NCBI GenBank assembly: GCA_033391075.1
Contig: JAWPMV010000001.1
Span: forward strand, 2,666,001-2,730,000
Direction: 5' to 3'
Length of the DNA: 64,000 bases
Source: Bacteroidia bacterium
Lineage (GTDB): Bacteria; Bacteroidota; Bacteroidia; J057
Shown here: one piece after another, positions 6,783 to 9,941 of the stretch
Position numbering within the stretch: position 1 is the stretch's first letter
How the letters are laid out: every line of letters starts with the position of its first letter
The notes under the pieces: generated by a model
What the model was told of the DNA's origin: nothing
The model's input: the letters and a program-made list of their open reading frames with translations, nothing else
Databases searched by the model: none
Translations under genes and position numbers: made by a program

Positions 6783-6819
6783 AAAATAGCCGCTCAATCA
6801 CTTGAGCGGCTATTTTTTT
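6783..6819 (+). terminator. Strong intrinsic terminator
   Basis: A perfect 13-bp stem (6785-6797 with 6802-6814) with loop TCAC followed by a long T run. It ends the small exported protein gene and insulates the metal operon downstream. Confidence 0.95.
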
Positions 6820-6909: not shown

Positions 6910-8661
6910 ATGAAAAAACTATACCTCCTGTTATGCCTGAGTATCTGTCTTTGCCTGATTGGGAAAGCACAAATACCCAAGATGAAAGTAGTTGCAACAA
7001 CTACTTTTCTGGCGGACCTCGCAAAAAACATTGCCGGGGATAAAGCAGATGTTATTTCTCTCATGCCCACAGGTGGAGATCCTCATTTATATGACCCCAT
7101 TCCGGGAGATGCTAAAAAGATAGCCGAAGCAGATGTGATTCTGAGAAATGGGCTTACCCTTGAAGGCTGGCTGGATGAGTTGATTGAGAATTCCGGAACC
7201 CGTGCCAAGATTTATACTTTGACTGAAGGGATCATCCCCATCAAATCAGTCGTTTATGAGGATGCCCTGGATCCTCATGCCTGGATGGATGTAAAGAACG
7301 GAATCATCTATACAGATAATATTCTCCGGGCACTAATCGAATCTCAGCCAACTGATCAGGATTACTTTGAGTCGCAGCACGCAGCATATAAAGCTATACT
7401 GCTTGCATTGGATGTAGAGATAAAAGAACAAATCGCACAAATCCCTGCCAAGAAAAGAGTATTGGTTACTTCTCATGATGCCTTTCGTTATTACGGAAAC
7501 GCCTATGGTTTGGAAGTGGTATCTGCCATGGGAACCAGTACGGATGCAGAGCCCACCCTGGAAGATTTGGCACATCTGTCTGAACAGGTGAAAGAAAATG
7601 ATATCCCAGCCATTTTTATTGAGTCAACAATAAATCCTGAGATCATGGAGCAAAGAGCCAGTGATTTGGGAATCAGGATAGGAGGAAAACTCTTTGCGGA
7701 TTCGCTGGGAGATGAAGAAAGCGGGGCAGATACCTATGTGAAAATGTTGCGGCAAAATACCCGCCTGATTCTGGATGGACTTGCCCGCCTAAGTGGAACC
7801 AAAGAAGCAGAAGAAGATTACAATTTCCTTTTTGTTATTCTGGGGATTTTTGCCCTGTCTTTTGTAGTAGTTGTGGTAAAATTGAGAATCCCTTCCCGAG
7901 AAGATTTGAAATGGGAAAACTACAAGATTGATATTTCAGGTTTGAGTGTTTCTTATGATCGTAAATCCGTTCTTTCCAACATTCATTTGACACTGGAGCC
8001 TGGATATGTATACGGTTTGCTAGGAGGAAATGGATCGGGAAAATCGACCATGTTCAAGTCTATCTTAGGGCTTATTCCTACTGATTCAGGATCTATTAGC
8101 ATACATGGAGAGGAGGTGGAAAGTGTGCAAAAGTTCATTTCCTACATTCCCCAAAAAGAAGAAATTGACTGGAGTTTTCCGGCTACTGTTTTTGATATCG
8201 TCCTCATGGGAAGGTATCCTCATCGCAAAGTCTTTGAACGCCTTTCTCGTGAAGATCATGAAGTAGCCAAAGAATCCCTTCGGATGATGGGGATAGAAGA
8301 TTTGGCTCCCAAGCAGATCGGTGAATTAAGCGGAGGTCAACAACAACGAGCCTTTATAGCCAGAGCTCTTTGTCAGGATGCTGAGATATACCTATTCGAC
8401 GAACCTTTTGTAGGAGTTGATATAACCACGGAAGCCAAGATCATTGAAATTGTAAAGAATCTTGCAAAAGAAGGCAAGCTGGTAGTTATCATCCACCATG
8501 ATTTGGCGAAAGTCAACGAATACTTTGATAAAGTCATCATGATCAATCAACGTCTGGTAGCCTTTGGCGATACAGAAGAAGTCTTTACAGATGAAAACAT
8601 CAAAAAGACCTATGGAGGTCGCCTGACTATTCTTCAACAAACAGAAAATCAACGTCAATAA
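6910..8661 (+). CDS. Metal ABC importer: substrate-binding protein fused through a TM helix to the ABC ATPase
   Basis: A 583-residue fusion. Residues 1-20 are a signal peptide. Residues 25-295 are a TroA/ZnuA-type (cluster A-I) periplasmic metal-binding protein with expected ligands H59 (GGDPHLYDP), H123 (DPHAWMD), H189 (TSHDAFRYYG) and an acidic ligand near D264. A transmembrane helix at 306-324 then crosses the membrane. Residues 336-575 are a complete ABC ATPase: Walker A GGNGSGKST 372-380, Q-loop Q415, signature LSGGQ 473-477, Walker B YLFDEP 494-499, H-loop H530. The topology is consistent: binder outside, ATPase inside. There is no His-rich loop, and together with the regulator next door this favours Mn or Fe over Zn (inference). 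The permease gene follows after 14 bp. Normally these two domains are separate polypeptides. Confidence 0.92.
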   Translation: MKKLYLLLCLSICLCLIGKAQIPKMKVVATTTFLADLAKNIAGDKADVISLMPTGGDPHLYDPIPGDAKKIAEADVILRNGLTLEGWLDELIENSGTRAKIYTLTEGIIPIKSVVYEDALDPHAWMDVKNGIIYTDNILRALIESQPTDQDYFESQHAAYKAILLALDVEIKEQIAQIPAKKRVLVTSHDAFRYYGNAYGLEVVSAMGTSTDAEPTLEDLAHLSEQVKENDIPAIFIESTINPEIMEQRASDLGIRIGGKLFADSLGDEESGADTYVKMLRQNTRLILDGLARLSGTKEAEEDYNFLFVILGIFALSFVVVVVKLRIPSREDLKWENYKIDISGLSVSYDRKSVLSNIHLTLEPGYVYGLLGGNGSGKSTMFKSILGLIPTDSGSISIHGEEVESVQKFISYIPQKEEIDWSFPATVFDIVLMGRYPHRKVFERLSREDHEVAKESLRMMGIEDLAPKQIGELSGGQQQRAFIARALCQDAEIYLFDEPFVGVDITTEAKIIEIVKNLAKEGKLVVIIHHDLAKVNEYFDKVIMINQRLVAFGDTEEVFTDENIKKTYGGRLTILQQTENQRQ

Positions 8662-8675
8662 GCAGGAGCAGAGAA

Positions 8676-9941
8676 ATGGAAAAGATCATCGAAATATTTC
8701 AGTATGAGTTTGCCATACGAGCCCTGATTGCCTCTTCTATGGTAGGGGTAATGTGTGGGATTTTGGGCTGCTTTATTGTTTTGCGGAATATGTCTCTCAT
8801 CGGAGACGCCCTTTCACATGCCATCCTGCCAGGTGTAGTTGTGGGTTATTTAATTGCAGGATATAGTGTGCTGGGTTTCTTTACAGGATCTGTTATCGCC
8901 GGCTTGATGGCTGCCATTATGATCACCTGGATACAGCGAAATGTAAAAACCCAGGAAGATGCGGCCATAGGAATTGTATTTACCTCCATGTTTGCCCTGG
9001 GGGTAATGGGAATTTCCTGGCTGACCCATCAGGAAGGCGTTCACCTTGATCTCAAGGATTTCCTCTTCGGAAATGTCCTCGGCATTTCTAATCAGGACCT
9101 GATAATGACCGCTCTGGTCCTGGGCTTTACCCTGATTTGTGTGATCGCTTTTTATCGATACTTTTTCATTACAACCTTCGAATCTGTAATTGCCCAGACT
9201 TTGGGGATTTCGGTGAGTACTATGCATTATTTCCTGATGCTTTTACTCTCTTTCGCAGTTGTAGCATCTTTACAATCCGTGGGTGTAATTCTGGTGGTGG
9301 CAATGCTGATTACACCAGCCTCCACGGCCTATTTGCTGACCTATCGACTGGATAGAATGTTGGTGATAGCAGCTGTGGTCGGTTTATTATCCAGTATTCT
9401 AGGGCTGATGTTGGCCATCGTTTTTGAAACCACTCCCGGACCTGCCATGACGGTAACGGCTACCCTCTTTTATCTGTTGGCTGTCTTTTTCTCTCCGAAA
9501 AGAGGTCTGGTAAGTATATACCTGAAGCGCAGGGAGATGAGAAGACAGATTCTGCGAGAAGATGTATTAAAACAAGCCCTGAAATTGCAAGAAGAAAGTG
9601 GAGCAAATCCAGGACGGATAGCTGCTGATCTTGGTTTGAGTGAACAGCAGGTAGGAACTTTGCTCAAGCACCTGGAACGAAAGGGCTTTTTAGCCTTCAA
9701 AGGAAAAGAAATAGAGCTAAGTGAACATGGGGTGCGAAGGGGATATGAACTGATTCGTGCACACAGACTCTGGGAAACCTATCAGGTAGAAATGATGGGC
9801 CTGAATGCAGATCAAATTCACCTCGAAGCAGAAAAATACGAGCATATCCTTACAGAGGCTTTGGTGGAAGCTTTGGCCAAGGAATTGGGATATCCTGAAA
9901 AGGATCCACATGGGTCACCTATTCCAAAGATCGAAGAATAA
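8676..9941 (+). CDS. Metal ABC importer permease fused to a DtxR/MntR-type repressor domain
   Basis: A 421-residue fusion. Residues 10-275 form an ABC-3 (ZnuB/MntC/TroC-type) permease with about eight to nine hydrophobic segments and the GDALSHAILPG motif at 43-53. Residues 288-421 form a DtxR-family regulator: winged helix about 294-350, then the dimerisation and metal domain with HRLWETYQ (H363, E367), IHLEAEKYEH (H382, E386, E389, H390) and DPHGSPIP (410-417). D296 and E386 occupy the positions of MntR D8 and E99, where DtxR has Met and Cys, so manganese is the likeliest co-repressor (inference by hand alignment). Chlamydial YtgCR is a known permease-repressor fusion whose repressor part is released by proteolysis. 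It is cotranscribed with the SBP-ATPase gene. Confidence 0.92.
   Translation: MEKIIEIFQYEFAIRALIASSMVGVMCGILGCFIVLRNMSLIGDALSHAILPGVVVGYLIAGYSVLGFFTGSVIAGLMAAIMITWIQRNVKTQEDAAIGIVFTSMFALGVMGISWLTHQEGVHLDLKDFLFGNVLGISNQDLIMTALVLGFTLICVIAFYRYFFITTFESVIAQTLGISVSTMHYFLMLLLSFAVVASLQSVGVILVVAMLITPASTAYLLTYRLDRMLVIAAVVGLLSSILGLMLAIVFETTPGPAMTVTATLFYLLAVFFSPKRGLVSIYLKRREMRRQILREDVLKQALKLQEESGANPGRIAADLGLSEQQVGTLLKHLERKGFLAFKGKEIELSEHGVRRGYELIRAHRLWETYQVEMMGLNADQIHLEAEKYEHILTEALVEALAKELGYPEKDPHGSPIPKIEE

Follow-up and report, generated by a model that had tools for sequence, protein, structure and literature searches.

The stretch of DNA analysed here (the window; 64,000 nucleotides of a Bacteroidia bacterium, assembly GCA_033391075.1, contig JAWPMV010000001.1, positions 2,666,001 to 2,730,000 of the forward strand) carries a two-gene unit in which the first gene joins a metal-binding protein to the ATPase of an ABC transporter (Table 1). 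The two domains share one uninterrupted frame, running from ATG to TAA, and Pfam detects both in the same chain, with ZnuA (PF01297) at residues 27-287 (274.9 bits against a cut-off of 29) and ABC_tran at residues 355-500 (101.4 bits against a cut-off of 25). At the N-terminus we read a putative signal peptidase I site near KA-Q. The original prediction, made from the sequence alone, had described a signal peptide, a TroA-type binder, a transmembrane helix and an ABC ATPase in one frame with the motifs of both domains intact; the reading frame and the Pfam matches confirm this order, and the four metal ligands as well as the Walker A, Walker B, Q-loop, signature and H-loop residues were all found. 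It had also named a missed stop or frameshift near 7820-7930 as the point on which the fusion might founder. Upon re-reading, this segment is free of stops and frameshifts, and relatives at 35-64% identity keep the frame, so that the objection falls away.

Table 1. Features of the two-gene unit and its upstream flank, in window coordinates
Feature	Position	Strand	Evidence or remarks
Hairpin resembling an intrinsic terminator, with T run, upstream of both genes	6785..6818	+	-19.7 kcal/mol
Fused gene: signal peptide, ZnuA/TroA-type binder, transmembrane helix, ABC ATPase	6910..8661	+	583 aa
Signal peptide (putative), residues about 1-21, without lipobox Cys	6910..6972	+	
Metal-binding domain, residues 27-287, ligands H59, H123, H189, D264	6988..7770	+	Pfam ZnuA, alignment, fold match
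Transmembrane helix, residues 304-325	7819..7884	+	AlphaFold2, hydropathy
Cytoplasmic linker, residues 326-338	7885..7923	+	In frame: one TTG (333), no ATG or GTG
ABC ATPase domain, residues 339-574, motifs intact	7924..8631	+	Pfam, alignment, fold match
Partner gene: ABC-3 permease (about 1-281) and DtxR-like domain (289-421)	8676..9941	+	Pfam, fold match
DtxR-like C-terminal domain of the permease, residues 289-421	9540..9938	+	Pfam Fe_dep_repr_C 350-418, 76.1 bits; fold match

The binder has its best PDB match in AztC (5kzj; Z 38.2, 1.5 Å, 271 aligned positions over residues 23-293), and also matches PsaA (3ztt, Z 36.2), TroA (1toa, Z 35.6) and further Mn, Zn and Fe binders; these fold searches re-compared the entries on Foldseek's list, so a family missing from the results proves nothing. 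The four ligands align with what we take to be the metal-ligand positions of PsaA, with H189 standing at PsaA Glu205, where TroA and AztC presumably also have a histidine; PsaA E205 and D280 mutants are named in the titles of the PDB fold matches. These four ligands do not discriminate Mn from Zn. The ATPase domain superimposes on the PsaBC ATPase (7kyp_M; Z 32.5, 1.7 Å, 233 aligned positions; 7kyo_B also gives Z 32.5), and its motifs lie at residues 372-380 (Walker A), Q415 (Q-loop), 473-480 (signature), 493-499 (Walker B) and H530 (H-loop). In the comparative set described below the same four ligands recur in all 23 fused proteins and in all 29 unfused binders that have a C-terminal helix, and the eight ATPase residues checked are likewise kept in 23/23 fused proteins, with the exception of one L-to-I change in the signature motif.

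Between the two domains lies the membrane helix, which had been predicted at residues 306-324 and is placed by AlphaFold2 almost identically (Table 1). The best 19-residue hydropathy window reaches 2.87 (residues 307-325), as against a peak of 0.98 in the soluble regions; of 20,000 segments of 45 residues drawn at random from the soluble regions only one reaches this value, and a chance helix was rejected. The AlphaFold2 model, which was built from 46 aligned proteins of the window and the loci, has a mean pLDDT of 91.8 with confident domains on either side of the helix; its pTM of 0.62 counts against the explanation as an importer given below, and the relative placement of the domains is that of the model only. 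Across 24 distinct fused junctions the linker following the helix measures 13-22 residues by the definition of our script. The 12 residues after the helix contain more Lys and Arg than the 12 before it in 17 of these junctions, equal numbers in seven and fewer in none; in the window itself the flank after the helix has three basic and three acidic residues, and that before it one basic and four acidic. With 7/24 junctions showing no excess, this amounts to a modest positive-inside signal for a cytoplasmic placement of the ATPase; these seven junctions, and the even charge balance after the window's own helix, count against the importer explanation.

The permease gene starts 14 bp downstream of the fused gene, and its product matches ABC-3 with 253.2 bits and the fold of PsaC with Z 35.8. 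The Asp/His pair that coordinates metal in PsaC (D46/H50), named as essential in the available text of a PsaC study (PMC11779740), is matched in the alignment by D44 and H48 of the window's permease. A search of the window's genome recovered a single ZnuA domain, that of the fused gene, and a single ABC-3 permease, that of the next gene; the importer therefore consists of two genes, as had originally been proposed.

Beyond its transmembrane part the permease continues into a DtxR-like domain whose closest fold is the Mn-dependent repressor DR2539 (Z 19.7, 133 aligned positions). To characterize this tail we compared, among the fetched loci, 36 permease-fused DtxR-like domains (44 before removal of near-copies) with 22 of 24 stand-alone regulators. 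In the recognition-helix region (residues 310-337) mean identity is 23.5% for the permease-fused set (n=36) versus 59.1% for the stand-alone set (n=22), and in the metal/dimer region 50.9% versus 67.7%. H363, E367, H382, E389 and H390 are present in 36/36 permease tails and E386 in 35/36, all six being residues which we take to form the DtxR/MntR metal site, whereas A, S, V, D and M at positions 324, 325, 326, 328 and 329, found in 20-22 of the 22 stand-alone regulators, are not kept in the permease tails. This pattern only suggests that the tail is a metal sensor which has given up DNA recognition, because the two sets are unmatched for divergence. The tail occurs in many of the fetched Bacteroidota loci, whether or not binder and ATPase are fused there, and the fused loci L015, L016, L042 and L044 lack it, so the two fusions are independent of each other. 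A second Fe_dep_repr_C protein of the same genome is a stand-alone DtxR/MntR-type regulator of 235 aa (G000 C1:3015583-3015789, L080), about 340 kb away; in a number of relatives (e.g. L024, L025 and L051) the gene for such a regulator immediately precedes that of the binder. The window's permease ends at residue 421, and many of its relatives (for instance L035:1103-2593) continue for ~75 residues past the DtxR-like domain; the extension of L035 has no Pfam match.

We fetched 112 loci encoding both domains, of which 97 remained after 15 near-copies were dropped. These fall into three layouts, namely separate lipoprotein-type binders without a C-terminal helix (45), separate binders with such a helix (29) and fusions (23); as the loci are best matches, capped in number, these counts are neither frequencies nor a census. 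A lipobox pattern was detected in 42/45 lipoprotein-type binders, in 2/29 helix-anchored ones and in 2/23 fusions, and is thus absent from 48 of the 52 proteins in the latter two classes. In both directions the exceptions appear to reflect errors of the pattern: in the lipoprotein-type L060, L094 and L115 the cysteine is visible by eye, and in the helix-type L030, L033, L087 and L106 the match lies by eye inside the hydrophobic core. Given that the lipobox is common in the lipoprotein-type proteins and nearly absent from the others, it seems that an N-terminal lipid gave way to a C-terminal helix as the anchor. In a phylogenetic tree of the binder and ATPase domains, with helix and linker left out, the 52 helix-anchored and fused proteins form one group (support 98, starred). 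This is a quick tree whose support values are SH-aLRT alone, and some of its branches are long, including that of L044 in the fused class. The fused state requires three changes on this tree and the starred branches force three, while a single clade of all fused proteins is rejected (p-AU 8.8e-8). The main group comprises 20 fusions at a support of only 65, which counts against the preferred explanation; L089 and the pair L030/L085, which have different linkers, are placed among unfused helix-anchored proteins.

The simplest reading of this phylogenetic picture is that there was likely one swap of anchor followed by about three fusions. The tree alone is blind to gain versus loss, and descent from an already fused ancestor, through one fission and two re-fusions, takes the same number of changes. 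In five unfused loci (L051, L084, L087, L088 and L090) the binder and ATPase genes share a frame and are parted by a single stop, and the likely start codon of the ATPase is 0-3 bp past that stop; hence the evolutionary step to fusion is a short one. The distance between the genes, considered as a hint that they were coupled before they fused, proved weak: the median is 3 bp in 27 helix-anchored loci versus 8 bp in 42 lipoprotein-type loci, with start codons assigned by a simple rule that failed in five loci and gave two absurd values.

In the family of the window 10/13 genomes have the fusion (the window's own included), one of these ten copies being cut by a contig end (G006); one genome (G007) has separate genes and two have no match at E 1e-40. 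Within the order 13/22 genomes are fused, counting the window's own and one contig-cut copy, five have separate genes and four lack a match. A second collection of 22 loci, which shares several genomes with the order sample, contains 15 fusions (one contig-cut), six separate pairs and one locus with a match to the ATPase only. In a sample of the phylum, 68 of 395 genomes match at E 1e-60 and the window's own is the sole fused one among these 68, and in the order of G085 there are three fusions (L083, L085 and L089) among 88 matching genomes out of 298, with the best three or four candidates per genome scored in both searches. Frame length by itself was dismissed as misleading evidence of fusion, stops being read through in the genome search: all frames of at least 550 aa in these two samples were re-read, apart from that of G245, a full-length match judged from its two stops, and besides the window's own only L083, L085 and L089 emerged. 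The fusion is thus rare outside these lineages, which weighs against its explanation as an importer. A plasmid search matched 1404 records; among the 15 matches listed, 11 are annotated as separate genes, none is from Bacteroidota by name, and two (H5 and H15) nevertheless give one continuous match.

Domain by domain, the unit corresponds to importers of the PsaABC, TroABCD and MntABC type (ZnuA, ABC_tran and ABC-3). It departs from them in that binder and ATPase form one chain through a transmembrane helix, with two genes in all and no lipobox, and in that the permease bears a DtxR-like tail; the classical binder is a polypeptide of its own. AztC of the zinc importer AztABC of Paracoccus denitrificans is the best NCBIfam match of the binder as well as its best fold, yet AztC and AztA are separate models, unlike the single chain of the window, and the NCBIfam cut-offs of this system are not reached (AztC 247.9 against 350, AztA 186.1 against 220 and AztB 207.3 against 280 bits). 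The nearest described case of tethered binders is OpuA, for which the available text of one study reports binders covalently linked to the transmembrane domains, two per complex (PMC11065425). In OpuA and GlnPQ the binding domains are tied to the permease, whereas here the binder is tied across the membrane, via its own helix, to the ATPase and the permease is encoded by a separate gene. A review, in the portion available, lists ATPases fused to the transmembrane domain and binders fused to the transport domain, with no mention there of a binder-ATPase fusion (PMC8276074). Also close are the unfused Bacteroidota relatives whose binder ends in a transmembrane helix (e.g. L051, L084 and L098), which have the same binder family, a helix placed alike, no lipobox and an adjoining ATPase gene, and differ in the stop codon that parts binder from ATPase. 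The parts are of a known importer kind. Their arrangement as binder, helix and ATPase within a single polypeptide is a variant; neither for it nor for the DtxR-like permease tail did we find a description in the open-access papers searched. This agrees with the original view of an unrecognised architecture, a prior listing of the fusion in subscription journals or architecture databases being possible.

We consider it likely that the two genes encode a complete divalent-metal importer akin to PsaABC and TroABC, made of two polypeptides and holding two tethered binders, its substrate, topology and stoichiometry being predictions. The substrate would be Mn2+, or possibly Zn2+ or Fe2+. The signal peptide would export the fused chain and the binder would fold in the periplasm, with the helix halting translocation such that the ATPase remains cytoplasmic. 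Two fused chains would then pair with two ABC-3 permeases and thereby bring two binders to each transporter, both held at the membrane near the entry gate, with binders and ATPases in a fixed 1:1 ratio. Metal would be caught by a binder that docks on the permease, and the joined ATPases would drive its release and passage as they bind and hydrolyse ATP; the DtxR-like tail may sense cytoplasmic metal and damp transport. BtuCD-F and other type II importers dock a single binder at a time, over the two-fold axis; if this holds here, the two tethered binders would alternate. The original interpretation thus stands in part: domain order, tether and two-gene system are supported by the sequence, and the intact fused chain with two binders per complex is what we infer from gene structure. 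Three points go beyond what that interpretation could draw on or mentioned: the conservation of the fusion among relatives, the presence of the same helix instead of a lipid anchor in unfused sister lineages, and the DtxR-like domain of the permease. A fuller proposal, to which we give a little less than even confidence, is that of a self-contained two-gene importer with receptor, stop-transfer helix and ATPase in one chain, in which a former repressor domain of the permease would act as a cytoplasmic metal gauge, so that receptor, motor, channel and feedback sensor are shared between two polypeptides, and which would have arisen through the swap from lipid to helix and then about three fusions across the membrane.

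The main alternative to an intact chain is that the product does not stay fused, with a protease cutting near the helix or the ATPase starting internally, so that binder and ATPase would act separately, as the separate proteins of the unfused sister lineages do. Two codons at the end of the window's helix, GTG 322 and TTG 325, in addition to the TTG of the linker, count against the intact-chain importer and leave room, on sequence grounds, for such internal starts. Nevertheless, 19 of the 24 distinct fused junctions lack ATG and five lack ATG, GTG and TTG alike, which implies that internal starts are not a shared feature, and the diverged relatives have kept the frame; we regard separate products as unlikely. 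The fusion could also be an artefact of assembly or sequencing, given that in the five sister genomes with a single in-frame stop a small error could join the genes. This has a negligible probability, since independent genomes carry the same frame in the order (13/22) and in the partly overlapping second collection, and an assembly accident or missed stop was accordingly rejected.

The DtxR-like tail of the partner permease would also fit a role of the fused protein mainly as a metal sensor or regulator of an importer, and not as a working ATPase. Such a role appears very improbable: the catalytic residues checked are intact, the next-best match to the ATPase within the window's genome is only 31% identical, and that genome yielded no second ABC-3 permease or ZnuA domain from which another such importer could be built.

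The usual view of ABC importers is that they profit from binders which are free and in excess. In the two-gene importer favoured here the binder would instead be tied one to one to the motor across the membrane, an arrangement that appears to have been repeated from helix-anchored ancestors. Within one homologous family, the lipoprotein-type, helix-anchored and fused proteins thus form a natural series on which the worth of free binder diffusion could be tested, as could the alternation of two tethered binders, and the DtxR-like tail offers a test case for metal feedback inside a transporter. One further locus, L115, presents a different arrangement, with ATPase, ABC-3 permease and DtxR-like domain in a single frame of 745 aa (L115:2376-4610) adjoining a separate binder that by eye resembles a lipoprotein; this is possibly another two-gene solution.
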